Below are positions 53,101 to 62,112 of a stretch of 64,000 nt of DNA, one piece after another. Origin of the DNA: an uncultured Gemmata sp. Its GTDB lineage: Bacteria; Planctomycetota; Planctomycetia; Gemmatales; Gemmataceae. Each line of letters begins with the position of its first letter. Within the stretch, counting starts at the first letter, position 1. The stretch is from assembly GCA_937924775.1 (NCBI GenBank), contig CALDUT010000010.1, positions 372,001 through 436,000 of the forward strand. The letters are read 5' to 3'. The notes beneath the pieces were generated by a model. That model was not told the DNA's origin. It did no database searches and was given only the letters and a program-made list of their open reading frames with translations. Made by a program: the position numbers and the translations under genes.

Positions 53101-54207
53101 ATGCTTCCCCAAACGCTCAACATCCATCCGACTTTGCCCCGCCGCCGCGATTGGCGCATTGGCTGTGTGGGTGCAGGTTTTATCATGCGGGATTGCCACC
53201 TCGTGGCCTACCGCGCCGCCGGTTTCAACCCGGTGGCCATCGCTTCGCGGAACCCTCTGACCGCTCGCGACGTTGCGTTACGGCATAACATTCCTACCAC
53301 TTACGACACCATCACCGCGTTACTTGCGGATCCGGCAATTGAAGTTCTCGACATCGCCGTGCCGCCGACCGCGCAACCTGAGATTATCCGTCGCGCTGTC
53401 GAGCTGGGTCAAGGTCGCCTCCGCGGCATTCTTGCCCAAAAGCCACTGGCACTCTCCCTCAACGAGGCCCGAAGTTTGGTGAAGCTTTGTAGTGATGCAG
53501 GAATCACACTGGCCGTGAACCAGAACATGCGCTTCGATCAATCTGTGCGTGCGGCCAAAGACCTTTTGACACGCGGGTGGATCGGAGAGCCGGTTCTCGC
53601 CACCATCGACATGCGCGCTGTTCCCCATTGGATGCCATGGGCCCAAGAACTGCCGTCGCTAACAACTTTTGTGATGTCCATTCATCACCTCGATTGCTTC
53701 CGGTATTGGTTGGGTAATCCGGAGCGCGTTTTGGCCTCCACCCGGCCCGATCCTCGCACCAAGTTTCCTCACCGCGACGGGATCAATCTCTACATCCTCG
53801 AATACGCCAGCGGAGCACGTGCAGCCGCCTGGGACGATGTTTGGACCGGCCCCTGCAAAGAAGGTGTGGCCGGAGACATCGCTATTCGCTGGCGCATCGA
53901 AGGCACTGATGGCCTCATGCAAGGCACCATCGGTTGGCCGAAATATCCCGCCCGCGAACCGAGTACGTTGGAATTCAGCACGCGGCAACAACCCAATTGC
54001 TGGATTCGCCCCCGTTGGGACGAAGTCTGGTTCCCGGATGCTTTTATTGGCACGATGGCCCAGTTGTTGGTGGCGATCGAAAATGATCGCGAGCCGGAAA
54101 CCAGCGGTCGCGATAATTTGGCCACAATCGCTTTGTGCGAAGCCGTTTTCACGGCAGCGACGGAACACCGCGTCGTGGCTATGGCTGACGTCATGAGTGC
54201 CGTATGA
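53101..54207 (+). CDS. Gfo/Idh/MocA-family NAD(P)-dependent oxidoreductase
   Basis: 368 residues from the ATG at 53101, GAGGTG six bases upstream. The N-terminal Rossmann domain has [14 protein letters not shown]; the family EKP motif is AQKPLALS here (Gln in place of Glu). The C-terminal alpha/beta domain contains [18 protein letters not shown]. Acts on a sugar or inositol; substrate unknown. Its stop overlaps the next start by four bases (ATGA), showing translational coupling. Head of an apparent three-gene unit with 54204 and 55052. Confidence 0.9.
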
Positions 54208-55031
54208 TTCCGGACCGCCGCATTCAACAAGCCATAGTTTTGGCCGATGCGCGCAGCGTGCGTGTCGTTGCCGCCAGTGAGGAATTCGATGAACCGGAAG
54301 CCGAACGAATCGCCGTTCTCTTCGGCAGCCGCCCTCTTGGTGTGGCATGCCCGTTGGCACACTTCGCTTGCCCGTTTGGCACCCACCACGTCGCGATTGT
54401 TCGCGTGGAAGATCGCCCCAACGAACTTCTCGGCTTCCGTTTTCTGATTGTGACGCGTGAACTATACGAATACTTAGGTGATCCATTTGCCATCTCCGAC
54501 CGCTACCCGGTTCTTTGGACTGCCAGCGGCCGGCTTCCTGAATTGGAATGGCCGATGGAACGTCTCCCCGAACGCACGCTCGAACAACTCGACGCAATCC
54601 TCAAGCACGGCGATGGAGCCCTGCTCCTCGGCTCAACTCAAGCCTTGGTGGATGGCAACCGCGTGTTGCTTCAACGCCATAAACCCGATGAACGGTTCTT
54701 GCGCGACTTGTGGCAACTATTACCCGATCGTACCCGTTGCAACTTGTGGCCGGCGAGTTTTGCATTTTCCGATGAACTCGGCTTTCATGCCGCAGTGGGG
54801 CCTACGTTACCCACCCGACGTTACGGCATGCAAGTGTTAGTAGAGGATGCCATTCGCGATTACCCCCAAAGTAGCTACGAACTCAATTTGCAAATCGCCA
54901 TCGAATCCGGCGATCGTGTGGCCTTGAAAAAGTTGCTAGCTCGCCGTACCGCCGACGAAACGCTTCGCCTAGGGCTTTATATGTTGGCCTTCGCGCTGGC
55001 GGTTGCCGTAGTGTCACGATGGTTGCTGTAA
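54204..55031 (+). CDS. unknown protein with C-terminal transmembrane tail, coupled to an oxidoreductase
   Basis: 275 residues. The start codon overlaps the previous stop by 4 bases (ATGA). The body reads as a soluble globular protein: [63 protein letters not shown], then an acidic helical region, closing with a hydrophobic C-terminal helix ([18 protein letters not shown]) with almost nothing after it, as in tail-anchored proteins. I recognise no family. The coupling to an oxidoreductase and to a Nudix-like gene suggests one functional unit. Confidence 0.75.
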
Positions 55032-55051
55032 GTGCAACACCTTGGCCGAGA

Positions 55052-55678
55052 ATGAGTGACAAGCCAATGTCAGCTGATGAATGCGTTTTGGTTATTCCCA
55101 CAAAACGGTTCCACGAGGTTGGTTATTTTTCTGGCTTCCGGCCCTTTGACGAAGCCCACGCCGCCCACCTCCTCGACCCGGCGGGCTTTGAATTTCGCCC
55201 GCGCGCCGAGGTTGAAACCGATCCCGCGTTCAAACAACTGATCCCGTATATTGTGCTTCAACATGCCCATGAACTCTTCCACTACCGCCGGGGTTCCTCT
55301 GGAACCGAGAAACGTCTGCAATCGCTCCGTTCGATTGGCCTAGGCGGCCATATCAGTGCGACTGATGCTGTCGGTGTCACCGATGCCTATCGCGCCGGAA
55401 TGCTACGCGAATTGGCAGAAGAAGTAGACATCCGCTGCGAGTATTCCGAATGCTGCCTTGGCTTCATCAACGACGACCGCACGCTGGTTGGTCGCGTGCA
55501 TTTGGGCGTGGTTCACCTGTGCCGCTTGGCCACACCGATGGTGTTTCCGCGTGAAGAGGTGATTTCTTCTGCCGGATTCGCAAGCCTGTCGTCGCTGCGG
55601 AACAGTTATTCCGAATTTGAAACCTGGTCGCAGTTTACGCTCGACTATTTGTCGGGGTCCGATTCTAGAACCTCATAG
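55052..55678 (+). CDS. Nudix-like domain protein
   Basis: 208 residues from ATG 55052; an in-frame start at 55019 would overlap the previous gene by 13 bases and 55067 is also possible. The segment GGHISATDAVGVTDAYRAGMLRELAEEVDI matches the Nudix box only in its second half (REL-AEE-V); the upstream Gly and Glu are displaced or replaced, and several residues are inserted. Surrounding strands (VLIPTKRFHEVGYF..., YIVLQHAHELFHYRR) fit a Nudix-type alpha/beta/alpha fold. Substrate unknown. Third gene of the unit starting at 53101; convergent with ftsQ. Confidence 0.75.
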   Translation: MSDKPMSADECVLVIPTKRFHEVGYFSGFRPFDEAHAAHLLDPAGFEFRPRAEVETDPAFKQLIPYIVLQHAHELFHYRRGSSGTEKRLQSLRSIGLGGHISATDAVGVTDAYRAGMLRELAEEVDIRCEYSECCLGFINDDRTLVGRVHLGVVHLCRLATPMVFPREEVISSAGFASLSSLRNSYSEFETWSQFTLDYLSGSDSRTS

Positions 55679-55718
55679 CGACAGAAAATTCTTCACCGCC
55701 GATAAGAAGTTCCTTGTC

Positions 55719-56384
55719 TCAGCCGCCTACTAAGAGCTTTTTGCCATCCCACAGTATCAATTCCCAACCTTGCGGCTTACGTTCGATCGTTTGGGGTTTG
55801 TATTCGATGGCCAGTTGCGCTGCTCGGGGCACGGTGGGGTCTGGCCAAACAGTACCCGCTGTGCCAGGAGCCGCAACGGCCGAGAGCAATTGGGGTAAAC
55901 GCTCTGGTACGGCTGCCAGCGGTAGTAAAATACCTTGACGATCCACGAGCCGCAGGCCATCGTCGGTGCTAACGGCCAGCACCGGCGTGCGAAACCGCAA
56001 GTGAACGTCCAGCTGCCGTGGCGGGTTGATAGTCACACTTTCTACACTTTCGACCCAAGGATGCGCCAAGAAGATGGTGCGAAGCCTAGCTTCCAACTCT
56101 GGATCGAGGAGCGAAACGGTCGCAGCGGTCTCGGTCAGGTAGCGAACTTCGGCAAGGAATGTTTCGCGACTCATCCCTGGCGGAGCTTCACACACAATAT
56201 CGCTGAAGGGTATGTGGTAGCGTTCCCGTTCGGCGAGTTGCAACCGAGCCTGTTGATTCAACTGGCCCACACCGTAAATGACAAGGCTAATCGCGCAGAG
56301 GGTCGTCGCGAAGGTCAACAATAATCGCCAAGGTCGCCAGCCGAAGGCCGCCGACGGTTCTGATCCGCGATTCTGTTTCACCAA
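55719..56384 (-). CDS. ftsQ: cell division protein FtsQ/DivIB-like
   Basis: 221 residues. A short cytoplasmic N-terminus, one transmembrane helix (about 19-38, LLLTFATTLCAISLVIYGVG), a POTRA-like segment (about 60-115, ending PWVESVESVTINPPRQLDV) and a beta-rich domain with VDRQGILLPL. It starts with TTG 56384 inside the end of murB, with AGGAG eight bases upstream, so the genes are translationally coupled. Planctomycetes lack FtsZ yet several keep this gene. Homology to FtsQ is from topology and the V-x-R-x-P...D-x-x-G pattern. Confidence 0.8.
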   Translation of the reverse strand: MVKQNRGSEPSAAFGWRPWRLLLTFATTLCAISLVIYGVGQLNQQARLQLAERERYHIPFSDIVCEAPPGMSRETFLAEVRYLTETAATVSLLDPELEARLRTIFLAHPWVESVESVTINPPRQLDVHLRFRTPVLAVSTDDGLRLVDRQGILLPLAAVPERLPQLLSAVAAPGTAGTVWPDPTVPRAAQLAIEYKPQTIERKPQGWELILWDGKKLLVGG

Positions 56385-57256
56385 ACATGTAGCTCCTGTT
56401 CCAAGAGAACACCGGTCCGCTGTTTGACTTTGTCGCGTACCAGTGCGATCAGCTGGAGAATGTCGCGGGCCGTACTGCCAGGGTGGGCGATGGCGTAATT
56501 GGAATTACGTTCGCTCAGTTCTGCGGCACCAACTTTAGTTTTGGTCATAGCAGCGCGGTCGATGAGCGACGCGGCCGTCTGCCCTGGCGGGTTGCGAAAT
56601 AGCCGCACTCCGGCTTGGAAGCTCAGCGGCTCGGTCGCTTTGCGAATAATCCACGCCTTGCGCATCCGTTTGACAATCGCCCCTGGAGAATCATTTTCCA
56701 ATTCAAACTCCACCGCGAGAATGACCGGTTCGTCAATGTCGCTGGCGTGTTCATGAAACGTCAGCTCATCGCGATTGCGGACTTGCACAGTCCCCGCTTC
56801 AGTCAGCACTGTGACATTCCGAATCGTTTGGCTGATTTCCGCGGTACGATCGCCAACATTGCAACGCACGCTACCGCCCACAGTTCCGCGAATACCAATG
56901 AGTGTTTCCAACCCGCCGAGCCCAGCCCGCACCGCAAAAGCAATCAAGTCAAACAACTGCCCTCCCCCGCCGGCAATAATGCGGCGGCCTTCACGTTTGA
57001 GGAAAGTAAAGGGTTCAGCAGTTAGGCGAATGACCACACCGGGAATAGGATCATCGCGGACCAATAAATTGAAGCCACCGCCCAACATCCGAACTTGCAG
57101 TTTCTCCTGCCGACACGCCGCCAGCACGGCATTGAGTTCTTCAAGCGTCCGCGGTTGAACCAAATACTGCGCTGGGCCACCTACCTTCAAATGGGTATAC
57201 GGGGCCAAGGGCTGGTCACATTGCGTGATTTCGGGAAACTGCTCGGCCAAGGACAT
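56378..57256 (-). CDS. murB: UDP-N-acetylmuramate dehydrogenase, divergent active site
   Basis: 292 residues. FAD-binding features are clear (LGGGFNLLV; GIRGTVGGSVRCNVG), and the last residues hold the expected Glu (LLEQELH). Yet two family motifs are altered. The catalytic Ser in the usual G-S-V-F(F)-x-NP block is replaced: residues 214-224 read FQAGVRLFRNP, with Val217-Arg218 at the Ser position. The Tyr/Arg FxYRxS block reads FHEHAS. Start 57256 has GGAGGTG upstream. It forms an operon with ftsQ. Function as a MurB is inferred from fold and neighbour, but catalysis by the standard mechanism is doubtful. Confidence 0.85.
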   Translation of the reverse strand: MSLAEQFPEITQCDQPLAPYTHLKVGGPAQYLVQPRTLEELNAVLAACRQEKLQVRMLGGGFNLLVRDDPIPGVVIRLTAEPFTFLKREGRRIIAGGGGQLFDLIAFAVRAGLGGLETLIGIRGTVGGSVRCNVGDRTAEISQTIRNVTVLTEAGTVQVRNRDELTFHEHASDIDEPVILAVEFELENDSPGAIVKRMRKAWIIRKATEPLSFQAGVRLFRNPPGQTAASLIDRAAMTKTKVGAAELSERNSNYAIAHPGSTARDILQLIALVRDKVKQRTGVLLEQELHVW

Positions 57257-57729
57257 CACGCACCTCCTTCGACTACAGTGTATCGCTTCGAACCATTCCT
57301 GAGTATCACCCTCCTGTCTCAAGAAAAACTGCCCGAAATTCTTTGCAGAATTCGTGATGAACAGCCCTGAGAGGGCTGGTAGTACAAATTACCATCTGTA
57401 CTAATGAATATGAGCAATGATCCGGAAAATGCAAATCGGTTTTGGCATTTTGGGGGAATTTTTTTCCAGAAAACCAGCCACTCCAGCCGGGCGAATCCCG
57501 AACCTTCGTGACAGAAATATCGTTTGTGGTCCGTCCTCGTCATGGCTAACCTGTGACCGGCTGTGGTCAAGCTGTGAGCAGTTTTACGCCCAAGGTTTCT
57601 GGAAACAGTCGACTTTTCACACGCAATAGCGCGGCACGTCATTTGCCTTCTGCGTCCACACTTGTTGATTCAAGGGCAATGAGTCAACAGATCATCTGAG
57701 CATGGGAATTGCCTTCGGGAGAACGCCAT
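57257..57729. promoter_or_regulatory. 473-base divergent intergenic region with two adjacent inverted repeats
   Basis: Between murB and a DUF1559 gene. CAGCCCT-GAG-AGGGCTG (57362-57378) is directly followed by TAGTACA (57380-57386) / TGTACTA (57397-57403) with a 10-base gap, an operator-like pair. Open frames in this gap have no Shine-Dalgarno or family match and were not called. Confidence 0.4.
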
Positions 57730-58743
57730 ATGGTTGACAAGCGGATTTCACCATTGAAACAAGCATATCACGCCTTCACGCTTATCGAATTGTTAGTGGT
57801 CATTGCCATTATCGCGATTCTGATCGGTTTGCTGCTTCCAGCCGTGCAGAAAGTGCGCGAAGCCGCTGCCCGAATGACTTGTCAGAACAACTTGAAGCAA
57901 ATTGGGCTGGCACTTCACAACTATCATGGAGCCGTCGGACATTTCCCCCCGGGCTTCACCAGTGTCAGCCACCCGGGGAACGTGAATTGGCGAACCCTGA
58001 GCACGACCGTGCCCGGTTATTACGAACCGGGGTGGAGCTTTTTTGTGTATATCTTGCCCTATCTCGAACAAGACAACCTGTATCGTCAGTTGGACCTGAA
58101 CTTGCCAATTCTGCATGGCAACAATGCCATTGCTCGTAGCGATGCGGCTCTGGTGCGAACCTATGTCTGCCCCAGTGATACCAGCCCTAAGCTAATTGAC
58201 GTTTGGGATTTTGGAGAATCGAGTACCGCCGTGACCCTCTCCGGTTCCGGAATTCTCCTCACCCGGGCCCCGGTTTCCTCCTACACCGGCGTACTGGGCA
58301 CCAACGACCACGAGGAGAATGGCGCTTTCAACGGCATGGTGTTCCGCAACAGTCGCATCCGGTTTGAGGATGTTGCCGATGGAACCTCGAATACCTTGTA
58401 CATTGGTGAACGAATGAGTCGCATGGCTGAAGCGACGTGGCTTGGCACTATCACTGGCAGTGAGGTGGTTCACACCGAGGGTTGGTGGCAACGCATGGGT
58501 TATCCGCACCGGTCTTTTAATTACCGGCCGGCGAATTTACATGTCACCTGCCACATTCGCAGCAGTAAACCGAATGTCTTGTCGAATAGCCCTAGCGGGT
58601 TCATGTCTCCCCATACCAACGGCTGCAATTTCTTGAATGTCGATGGTTCGGTGCGATTGATCACCGATGGCGTCGATCTGAACACTTTCCGGGCGCTAGC
58701 CACCCGCGCCGGTGGCGAAGTCATCAACGGCAACGCTTTCTGA
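57730..58743 (+). CDS. DUF1559 (type II pseudopilin-like) protein
   Basis: 337 residues from the ATG at 57730 (GGGAGA upstream; TTG 57709 is the first codon in frame but less likely). Leader [52 protein letters not shown] and the H-X9-DG block [17 protein letters not shown], ending [17 protein letters not shown]. No lipoprotein gene follows here; a GC-rich imperfect hairpin lies at about 58765-58797 and may terminate it. Confidence 0.94.
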
Positions 58744-59449: not shown

Positions 59450-60067
59450 ATGACCGATCCACCCTTGAATACTGCGGGCCTTCAGGAGTACATACAGCGT
59501 TGGCAAGCAGGCGATCGCAGCGGCGCGGATGAACTGCTCCGCGTGACCGGCCGCCGCTTGGAAAAACTCTCCCGCCGCATGTACCAAACCTTCCCCAACA
59601 TTCACGACCAAGCCGATAGCGGGGATGTTTTTCAGAATAGCATCATCCGGTTCCTGACCAGTTTGAAGAAACTCCAACCGACTTCGACCCGCGACTTCTT
59701 CAATCTCGCGGCGGTTCACATTCGCCGGGAATTGCTGGATATGGCGCGTCGTTGTCGCAAGAAAACGATACTGCCCCTCGGCCACCCGGACGACAGCGAT
59801 AGCCCTTCACCTTGCCAATTTGCGTCTTTGGAAATCGAACCCACGGAGGATTTCGAACTGTGGGTGCGTTTTCACGAAGCGGTGGATCGACTGCCGCTGG
59901 CTGAGCGGGAGATAGTCGGTCTGGTTTTCTACCACGGTTGGACACATGCCCGTATCGCCGAGCTTTTTGCTGTAAACGAACGCACCATCCGTCGGCGATG
60001 GGCGAGTGCTTGCGAGCGATTGCGCAAGATTGTGGGGAAGGAACTACCCGACAGTCCCGGTCACTGA
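59450..60067 (+). CDS. ECF RNA polymerase sigma factor
   Basis: 205 residues. Region 2 (about 25-100, including ELLRVTGRRLEKLSRRMY and DVFQNSIIRFLTSL) and region 4 (about 140-200, RLPLAEREIVGLVFYHGWTHARIAELF with the HTH VNERTIRRRWASACERLRK). A C-terminal extension or anti-sigma is not seen next to it. AGGAT lies nine bases before the ATG. Its last 24 bases overlap the 3' end of selB on the opposite strand. Confidence 0.9.
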   Translation: MTDPPLNTAGLQEYIQRWQAGDRSGADELLRVTGRRLEKLSRRMYQTFPNIHDQADSGDVFQNSIIRFLTSLKKLQPTSTRDFFNLAAVHIRRELLDMARRCRKKTILPLGHPDDSDSPSPCQFASLEIEPTEDFELWVRFHEAVDRLPLAEREIVGLVFYHGWTHARIAELFAVNERTIRRRWASACERLRKIVGKELPDSPGH

Positions 60068-61984
60068 TGCTAGAACCCGCAGGTCCCCGTCGCGGCGGGT
60101 CAGTCCGATCCGATCGAGGTATTCACACAACGGCACCGCGTATTTGCGTGTGGTACCCAGCAGGTCGCGGATTTCAGCCACGGTTAAACCAGGGCTGTGT
60201 TCGAGCCGCTGGCGAATCAACTGCCGCATCTGTTCTTCGGCTTCCGCGGCCAGATAGATGTTATTGGTAATCTTCACTAGCAGACCCTCGGCACAAGCCA
60301 CTTCAAAGATGTCGTTGAGGGCGGAGGCATTACCACCGGCCTGATTGACGAATTCTTTGGGTTCCGGGGGCGTGAAATGGGCGGCACGGTGAACTTCTAC
60401 GATCTTGTCCTTCAATTTTCTTTGATTGACACTGAGTTTGGGTTTGAAATCCGCACGGGCTATCCGACGTGCATTTCCCACCAACTGCCGCATCGCTATC
60501 AAACGATCCACAACCGCTTGGAGTAACTCAGGGTCGCCGACGAAATCGAGAAGGGCCAACACCTGTTGGCGATCGTGCGAAGTTAACAGGGGCTGTTCCG
60601 CGTGCAATCGGGCCAACGTTTCCATCAGGTGCTGTTCTAATTCGGTCACGCGATCGGCGTGAACCAGGACCGATCGATGGGAACTCAGCGTGAACTTCAC
60701 CAATTTCCCAGCGGCGAGAAGCTCTTGCGGCATGTTCAGAATCTGGTCAGGCCGTAGGCCCGCTTCTCGGACCCAATCGGTGGGTGCGAACCCGTGGTAA
60801 CCGGCGAACCACGCTACGGCCAACGCCCGTTGGACCTCGGACGCGGACGCTAACCGCTCGATTTGCTCGATTGTTTCAATATGTCGACGACGGATTTTCC
60901 GTGCCGTCGGTTGAAGAACACGGCCACCGCCCAACGTATGTTCCGCGGAACTATCCCGCAGAATGAAGGGTTGCCCCCAAACCACGGTCACTGGCTCCTC
61001 CGCAAACAATTGCCCCAACCCGCGTTCGCCAGGGTTGAGTGTATCGCAATCCAGAAGCGACACGGTAGCCATCACCTCCGCGGTTCCGACATGCAACCGC
61101 ACTGGTAAACGATGCTTGAGCGGGTGACGGGCTTGAGCCGAAGCATGCAGTTGTACAGTCGTCACCTTTGTGGGCCGCAAATACCCCGGCGTGGCCAATT
61201 CCTGGCCGCGACGAACCCGCTCCAAGGGCACCCCAGCCAGGTTGATCGCGGCTCGCTGACCCCGATGAACCTCGGCAACCGGTTGGCCGTGGTTGTTCAA
61301 ATTCCGTACACGGACCATTTCCATCTCGCCATTCCCCACATGCCACGCCAGCTCGTCCCCCACGCGAACGCAACCACTGACAATAGAACCTGTTACAACG
61401 GTGCCATGCCCCTGCACCACGAACGCTCGGTCGATGGGCAGGCGAAACCATTCTGCATTTGGCTGCGGTTCGACTTGCCGACAGAGTTGGGCCAAAGCCG
61501 CCTTCAATTCCTCCAACCCCAAGCCGGTATGGGCCGACGTCGGGATGATCGGGGCTTGTTCCAGAAACGTTCCCTGGACCAATTCCTGGATTTCCAACGC
61601 GACTACGTTCCGGGAGGTCTCGTCCACCAGATCGGCTTTCGTCAACGCGATCACACCGTGGCGAATGTTCAAGAGTTGCAGAATTTCGAGGTGTTCGCGG
61701 GTTTGGGGCATGATCCCATCGTCGGCGGCGACCACCAGTAAGGCACAATCAATCCCCGTTGCACCCGCGAGCATGTTTTTGATGAACCGCTCATGCCCGG
61801 GAACATCGACGATGCCCAGCCGGACACCATCGAGCTCCAGGTGCGCAAAACCGATGTCGATGGTGATACCCCGAGCTTTTTCTTCGGGCAAACGGTCGCA
61901 ATCAATACCCGTCAGGGCTTTCACCAAAGACGTCTTGCCGTGGTCGATGTGCCCGGCAGTGCCAAGAATCAGGTCGCGTGGCAT
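60044..61984 (-). CDS. selB: selenocysteine-specific translation elongation factor
   Basis: 646 residues. GTPase domain: G1 GHIDHGKTSLV (11-21), effector RGITIDIGFAHL, G3 DVPGHERF, G4 TKADL, then EF-Tu-like domains II and III, and a C-terminal region with several winged-helix units (about 370-640) that bind the mRNA SECIS hairpin. EF-Tu paralogs lack that tail, so the SelB call is good. AAGGA precedes ATG 61984. It implies selenocysteine decoding. selA, selD and tRNA-Sec are not in the window, and no selenoprotein was seen. Overlaps the ECF sigma 3' end by 24 bases. Confidence 0.92.
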   Translation of the reverse strand: MPRDLILGTAGHIDHGKTSLVKALTGIDCDRLPEEKARGITIDIGFAHLELDGVRLGIVDVPGHERFIKNMLAGATGIDCALLVVAADDGIMPQTREHLEILQLLNIRHGVIALTKADLVDETSRNVVALEIQELVQGTFLEQAPIIPTSAHTGLGLEELKAALAQLCRQVEPQPNAEWFRLPIDRAFVVQGHGTVVTGSIVSGCVRVGDELAWHVGNGEMEMVRVRNLNNHGQPVAEVHRGQRAAINLAGVPLERVRRGQELATPGYLRPTKVTTVQLHASAQARHPLKHRLPVRLHVGTAEVMATVSLLDCDTLNPGERGLGQLFAEEPVTVVWGQPFILRDSSAEHTLGGGRVLQPTARKIRRRHIETIEQIERLASASEVQRALAVAWFAGYHGFAPTDWVREAGLRPDQILNMPQELLAAGKLVKFTLSSHRSVLVHADRVTELEQHLMETLARLHAEQPLLTSHDRQQVLALLDFVGDPELLQAVVDRLIAMRQLVGNARRIARADFKPKLSVNQRKLKDKIVEVHRAAHFTPPEPKEFVNQAGGNASALNDIFEVACAEGLLVKITNNIYLAAEAEEQMRQLIRQRLEHSPGLTVAEIRDLLGTTRKYAVPLCEYLDRIGLTRRDGDLRVLASVTGTVG

Positions 61985-62112
61985 GGTGAGCTGTCCTTTT
62001 CGCAATCGTTGCCAGAATTGTATTCTGTCTGTGGGCGTGAAGTTGCTGTAGCCACAAACAACTGGTTTGCGGTAGGCTATCACGAAAGCCACGAACTGGA
62101 TGAGACGAACCG

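Follow-up and report, generated by a model that had tools for sequence, protein, structure and literature searches.

Type II MurB proteins are the closest described relatives of the protein considered here. In this class, represented by the enzymes of S. aureus (1hsk), Listeria (3tx1) and Thermus caldophilus (2gqu), the catalytic residue is a serine (type IIa) or a cysteine (type IIb; PMC3689657), so that a cysteine donor as such is not new. For E. coli MurB the title of entry 1uxy identifies Ser229 as the donor. The S229A protein of this entry likewise has no donor and, according to the title, still binds enolpyruvyl-UDP-GlcNAc; unlike our protein it is a laboratory mutant and carries alanine instead of arginine at this site.

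In the planctomycetes the history of the peptidoglycan genes is unusual. PMC12283558 reports that Pirellulales, Isosphaerales and Gemmatales have lost murA, murC, murD, murF, murG, murJ and ftsW, and that of the dcw genes just murB, mraW and ftsK are conserved across the whole PVC group. According to PMC10632474, murB is very conserved in Planctomycetia and yet not essential. PVC lineages without MurC but with a MurB near the TIGR00179 cut-off had already been marked (PMC4803751). The accessible text of PMC12283558 and PMC10632474 gives no explanation for this conservation of murB despite the loss of much of the pathway, and in our partial survey of the literature on planctomycete MurB and FtsQ we found nothing on lost catalytic residues or on a murB-ftsQ pair. 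Thus, the conservation of murB in these orders is already published, but the loss of the residues and the murB-ftsQ pair in murC-less planctomycetes appear to be new, as we did not find them in print. On the other side of the debate, Jeske et al. 2015 (PMC4432640) reported MurNAc and DAP for both G. obscuriglobus and R. baltica and, for the former species, sacculi that are sensitive to lysozyme. A later review repeats the detection of peptidoglycan components (PMC5147048).

Here we analyze a MurB-like gene and its neighbour in a stretch of 64,000 nucleotides from an uncultured Gemmata sp. (the window). We suggest, with a probability of roughly 0.55, that the protein is a vertically inherited MurB which no longer acts as UDP-GlcNAc-enolpyruvate reductase and was repurposed outside peptidoglycan synthesis, probably together with FtsQ. 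If such orphan MurBs are disabled and nevertheless under purifying selection beside ftsQ, the paradox of their conservation becomes testable, with a second role of MurB that would outlive peptidoglycan. The question is relevant to the debate on whether Gemmata has peptidoglycan. It is also a warning not to take MurB family-model matches in these genomes as a sign of peptidoglycan synthesis.

The MurB-like protein and its active site

The features of the locus are collected in the table. Pfam finds the domains FAD_binding_4 and MurB_C in the MurB-like protein. Its TIGR00179 score of 158.1 bits is above the cut-off (144.5), its PRK13905 score of 238.2 below (259). The closest named relative, with 93% identity, comes from a 'Gemmata sp.' MAG. 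With the AlphaFold2 model (46 aligned sequences, pLDDT 94.1, pTM 0.87) Foldseek ranks MurBs at the top (3tx1, TM 0.93), and the Z scores from VIA-align are 36.8 for 3tx1, across 286 residues, and 36.0 for 1hsk. The scaffold, as modelled, is a complete type II MurB fold. With the type II enzymes the protein shares the fold (Z 33-37), the length, most FAD motifs, the C-terminal glutamate and a TIGR00179 score above the cut-off, with PRK13905 below its own. It differs from them in having Arg218 for the catalytic serine or cysteine, Glu-His for Tyr-Arg and no recognisable pathway around it.

Features of the murB-ftsQ locus and of its surroundings in the window
Feature	Positions	Strand	Basis
MurB-like protein gene, 292 aa, ATG start at 57256	56378..57256	-	Pfam, TIGR00179, AlphaFold model
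Shine-Dalgarno sequence AAGGAGGTG of the murB-like gene	57261..57269	-	read from sequence
Arg218 codon, at the catalytic Ser/Cys position	56603..56605	-	ungapped alignment; R/K in 82/87 Gemmataceae
Glu169-His170 codons, at Tyr-Arg of FxYRxS	56747..56752	-	alignment
Glu288 codon, at the conserved C-terminal Glu (kept)	56393..56395	-	alignment
Phe62 codon, at Ser of the FAD motif GxGSN	57071..57073	-	alignment
FtsQ-like membrane protein gene, GTG start, 4-nt GTGA overlap with the murB stop	55719..56381	-	junction; AlphaFold, Foldseek, VIA
POTRA-type domain of the FtsQ-like protein, about residues 55-134	55983..56222	-	BamA POTRA range; within the longer FtsQ range
Open reading frame	55019-55678	+	
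Open reading frame	54204-55031	+	
DUF1559 prepilin-like protein gene	57709-58743	+	
SelB (selenocysteine elongation factor) gene	60044-62092	-	

The first-pass annotation had stated that the catalytic serine and the FxYRxS motif are replaced, and the alignments bear this out. Both stretches it quoted are present, FQAGVRLFRNPPG at residues 213-225 and FHEHASD at residues 167-173. HMMER pairs FQAGVRLFRNPPG without gaps with the MurB chains 3tx1, 4pyt, 9dtk and 1hsk, that is, with the PSCGSVFKRPPG block of Listeria MurB and the equivalent block of S. aureus MurB. The catalytic serine therefore falls on Arg218. In FHEHASD, Glu169-His170 stand opposite Tyr-Arg of FxYRxS. The corresponding sites of S. 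aureus MurB are presumably Y187, R188, S238 and, for the C-terminal glutamate, E308.

We counted these positions in 87 Gemmataceae sequences, leaving out the extra Ser-type copies L118 and L119. The donor site is Arg in 76, Lys in six and Pro in five sequences, hence Arg218 is not a sequencing accident. By this count the loss of the donor in Gemmatales is evidently not random, with a positive charge held at the site in 82/87. The Arg site of FxYRxS is His in 54 and Arg in only seven sequences; at the C-terminal Glu site we find E 71, A 6, D 4, Q 3, K 2 and one gap. A catalytic serine in a shifted position is not supported. None of the 87 sequences has Ser or Cys at 217-219 and the alignment is ungapped, though 22 of them carry Ser at 215 or 216, where the window protein reads Ala215-Gly216.

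It had also been claimed that the FAD and UDP-sugar binding parts are intact. For most motif residues this is correct (G59, G61, N63, G115, E117, G127, G128 and N133 are kept), but the Ser of GxGSN is Phe62, GIPG reads GIRG and NAGA reads NVGD. Position 62 is variable in Gemmataceae, and the Pro site of GIPG is Arg in 40/87 and Pro in 34/87. Other positions which are invariant in the MurBs of murC-bearing genomes are changed as well, namely H251 to N/D, F254 to Y and G239 to K/R. The most diverged MurB-like proteins of the family (31-34% identity) belong to genus g25 (L115, L116, L117) and have also lost the NAG-type FAD motif.

All these changes occur in a gene under selection. The dN/dS values (NG86) range from 0.013 to 0.194 over 11 pairs; dS approaches or exceeds 1 in several of them, and YN00 failed in four. 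The window gene compared with its 93% relative gives 0.036, as does one pair from f6. At least 93% conservation in Gemmataceae is seen at 42 positions, and none of the MurB matches listed, down to about 30% identity, has an internal stop. On these sequence comparisons murB appears clearly to be under purifying selection. Pseudogene status was ruled out by dN/dS and the open 292-aa frame. A scan of 55600-57700 gave no promoter-like site and one terminator-like site, both results within chance.

Peptidoglycan genes and the donor residue

Profile searches of the source genome (4.79 Mb, completeness 97%) found a single murB match, so there is no second, normal copy, and no MurA, no MurC, no MraY match and no PBP transpeptidase. 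The genome's own 'MurA' match proved to be AroA (TIGR01356, 413 bits, cut-off 287) and its 'MurC' match FolC (361 bits, cut-off 163). At 97% completeness, loss of these genes to gaps is unlikely but possible. Since the recognisable enzymes before and after MurB are missing, the MurB substrate is probably not made. Pathway loss with murB retained agrees with what PMC12283558 and PMC10632474 report.

The relatives give the same picture. Above the cut-offs, murC is found in one of 95 Gemmataceae genomes (G032), murA (TIGR01072) and mraY in none. Matches below the cut-off are common (57, 82 and 45 genomes for murC, murA and mraY, respectively); the identification as AroA or FolC applies to the source genome's own matches. 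A MurB-like match is absent from seven of the 95, several of them incomplete genomes. Within 297 genomes of the class, murB is found in 289 and absent from eight, and murC is above the cut-off in 74. In 18 hand-chosen genomes we find exactly one match to the EPSP-synthase family in 15/15 without murC and at least two in 3/3 with murC (two genomes with two, the third with three, of which two are adjacent in one 529-aa frame). A PBP transpeptidase is present in 0/15 and 3/3, respectively.

The genome G032 carries a Ser-type murB (L118) beside a murA on contig G032:C14 (loci L118, L125 and L236), in addition to its own Arg-type murB (L086). This murA scores 371.6 bits, under the TIGR01072 cut-off of 392.7, and 397.8 over the PRK09369 cut-off of 297. 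The murC lies on a separate contig (L121, G032:C121). The extra murB may be due to transfer or to contamination. A second Gemmataceae genome with an extra Ser-type murB is G035 (L119, a long branch in the tree).

For a comparison across Planctomycetia we used 88 Gemmataceae loci besides the window and 90 loci from the class, and later 40 more from murC-bearing genomes; L220 was dropped as a duplicate of L133. Families carry the codes f1 to f21, where f1 is Gemmataceae and f3, f4 and f6 are probably Isosphaeraceae-, Planctomycetaceae- and Pirellulaceae-like, respectively. Genomes with a class-search E-value below 1e-45 were called murC-bearing. The first 15 murC-bearing rows include five from genomes below the cut-off (four f3 with diverged murC, and G142), and the rule counts as murC-less some f3 genomes whose murC-like gene has diverged even further, such as G122, in which the gene adjoining murB clusters with MurC.

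In the first set the donor is Ser or Cys in 15/15 murC-bearing but only 22/161 murC-less rows, the second copies L086 and L198 being set apart. The 40 further MurBs, from 39 murC-bearing genomes, all keep Ser/Cys, Arg and Glu. Pooled, and with L086, L198 and a second G109 copy left out, Ser/Cys is found in 54/54 versus 22/161, and all three residues are kept in 50/54 versus 3/161. The murC-bearing MurBs have the Arg in 54/54 and the Glu in 50/54, with f3 accounting for the exceptions. Fisher values are tiny, but the rows are not independent. The 22 murC-less exceptions fall into f3 (16), f11 (three), f6 (one) and f12 (one), with the extra copy of G035 as the last. The nearest active-type relatives of the window protein are the MurBs of murC-bearing Planctomycetia, which are of the Cys type (SAGCIFKNPRG) and have Trp292, Arg197 and Trp202 in common with it; unlike the window protein they keep Ser/Cys and Arg, and the Glu too except in f3. 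The replacements of the donor differ between the murC-less families, and in murC-less f6 alone the position is occupied by Tyr, Met, Ile, Pro, Leu, Phe, Trp, Val and further residues. The annotation's proposal of a divergent planctomycete form is right, and the divergence is family-wide.

In f3 the C-terminal Glu is lost in 25/25 rows, murC-bearing or not, and mostly replaced by Gln. At the f3 loci L204, L205, L208 and L209 a diverged murC (173-217 bits, below the cut-off) adjoins murB. With a diverged murC kept and the Glu lost, these four may represent a half-way state.

A tree built on 126 rows out of 182, with f1 thinned and several long branches flagged, largely follows the family codes, as 20 group labels need 22 changes with a minimum of 19. 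The donor state changes 12 times. There are four supported independent pairs, of which 3.1 on average agree with the association of donor and murC and none is opposed, too few for significance. Donor-less second copies occur in two murC-bearing genomes, L086 with Arg in G032 and L198 with Tyr in G097. The latter genome (family f5) has a Cys-type murB (L133/L220) besides L198, which is also without the Arg of the YR motif. It looks as if an orphan-type MurB could stand beside a working one.

Arginine or lysine is found at position 170 or 218 in 149/161 murC-less rows (L086 and L198 included, L119 and L196 excluded). In 58 rows it is at 170 only, in 77 at 218 only, in 14 at both and in 12 at neither. 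The corresponding numbers for Gemmatales (f1 and f2) are 0, 74, 13 and 5. By row counts this swap from 170 to 218 has a Fisher value of 2.6e-18, which reflects mostly one split at Gemmatales. Outside Gemmatales, three of the four rows with R/K at 218 have lost it at 170 (Fisher 0.008), and the five tree-aware pairs are not significant. The pattern looks like an arginine moved across the pocket, by which an anion anchor at the flavin would be kept; statistically it is mainly one event.

The FtsQ-like neighbour

The murB-like gene had been described as coupled to ftsQ, and indeed the murB stop and the GTG start of the downstream gene overlap as GTGA, although the ORF tool places this start at a TTG at 56384. 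In the window protein Pfam finds neither FtsQ_DivIB_C nor POTRA_1 above the cut-off. Among 12 relatives PF03799 is found in two (best E 0.0021) and PF08478 in one (E 0.18), and a profile search of the PDB with the alignment of the protein returned no FtsQ. The AlphaFold model (pLDDT 92.4) has eight Foldseek matches in the PDB with E<=0.001, all of them FtsQ (TM 0.36-0.45). VIA gives Z 7.6-8.2 to FtsQ (8hhf_Q: Z 8.2, rmsd 7.7 over 177 residues), with BamA POTRA next at Z 6.8. The model thus points to FtsQ with modest scores. Like FtsQ/DivIB, the protein has an N-terminal membrane helix, a POTRA domain and a following beta domain; unlike FtsQ/DivIB, it stays below the Pfam cut-offs, and its alignment with E. 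coli FtsQ stops at about residue 213 of the latter. The C-terminal part therefore seems to be short. It is this part of FtsQ which binds FtsB.

An FtsQ-like gene lies within 900 nt downstream of murB at 137 of 161 murC-less loci (a set which includes L086 but not the window and differs slightly from that of the residue counts). Of the others, 18 have no room (<600 nt) and six are true misses. Since the seeds of the profile were themselves ORFs downstream of murB at these loci, they match it by construction. At 16 murC-bearing loci (L198 included) the gene was found six times and not found six times, and four had no room. In 20 wider stretches, 18 of them around murB, the largest shared clusters are MurB (13), FtsQ (12) and MurC (5), all others having at most four members; greedy ORF calling missed murB in five of the 18, and the cluster sizes alone are used. 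At two murC-bearing loci (L233, L240) a ddl-like gene, identified by reading the sequence, adjoins murB and the FtsQ-like gene lies beyond it.

In P. limnophila neither murB nor ftsQ is essential, and an ftsQ deletion mutant has wild-type growth and appearance (PMC10632474). This species still has the peptidoglycan pathway. Gene order is the only link between MurB and FtsQ, and it may persist by inertia from an older arrangement. Downstream of the pair and convergent with it are two overlapping open reading frames with no Pfam match at E<=0.001.

A proposed role for MurB outside its pathway

We suggest that loss of the peptidoglycan pathway left murB-ftsQ as the remainder of an ancestral dcw block murC-murB-ddl-ftsQ, and that MurB was kept through a second role with FtsQ. 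In a division machinery without FtsZ, MurB would most likely bind a flavin and an anion and act as a partner or a sensor. The Gemmatales pocket mostly keeps one positive charge, apparently shifted from 170 to 218, which suggests that an anionic ligand is probably still bound. The partner of MurB would most likely be the FtsQ-like protein. A fuller version, which we regard as unlikely in its entirety, would make the Gemmatales MurB a new flavin enzyme or redox/ligand sensor with Arg at the Ser/Cys site and an anionic ligand from outside peptidoglycan; with the FtsQ-like protein it would form the surviving dcw core in a division without FtsZ and without peptidoglycan synthesis. The peptidoglycan reported for G. 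obscuriglobus (PMC4432640) speaks against repurposing and is not reconciled with the missing genes. Should that report be correct, there must be some way of making MurNAc, and MurB may be active.

It is conceivable, though doubtful, that the Gemmatales protein is an active flavoenzyme which has acquired a new substrate. In this case Arg218 would bind a carboxylate and protonate the substrate, reduced FAD would give the hydride, and Glu288 might help. A precedent by analogy only is provided by the fumarate and urocanate reductases Fcc3 and UrdA, in which an Arg is the active-site acid in the flavin-dependent reduction of a C=C bond (PMC10882135); they are unrelated to MurB by any test used here. 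Such an enzyme would fit the holding of R/K at 218 and of Glu at 288 (71/87) in Gemmataceae when other murC-less families are varied, as well as the substitutions at H251, F254 and G239. Conservation by itself is no proof of catalysis, however. Moreover, position 288 is Ala in six Gemmataceae and Asp, Gln or Lys in nine, position 218 is Pro in five, and no substrate or pathway gene was found linked to murB.

Improbable in our view is a failing relic, kept because the loss of the pathway is recent or because the operon is needed for ftsQ. In its favour, the active-site residues vary freely in f6 and a few genomes lack the gene. The retention in 289/297 genomes of the class counts against decay, as do the low dN/dS values, the 42 conserved positions and the absence of internal stops among the matches listed.

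Least probable is that the protein is still a UDP-GlcNAc-enolpyruvate reductase, with Arg218 as donor and fed by an unrecognised MurA in a Gemmata which makes real peptidoglycan: the components and sacculi reported for G. obscuriglobus (PMC4432640), the TIGR00179 score and the retained fold and most FAD motifs would favour it, but a second match to the EPSP-synthase family is missing from the genome, as are MurC, a MraY above the cut-off and a transpeptidase PBP, the seven genes named above are reported as lost in Gemmatales (PMC12283558), and murC-less f6 relatives have at the site mostly residues unable to donate a proton. For the normal reaction the different proton donor proposed in the first-pass annotation is therefore unsupported.

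Further genes of the window lie upstream of the murB-ftsQ pair. ARAGORN finds two tRNAs in the window, for Val and Phe, and no tRNA-Sec, and the window encodes a SelB. Closer to murB is the gene for the prepilin-like protein with an N-terminal methylation motif, which belongs to DUF1559, a family common in planctomycetes.
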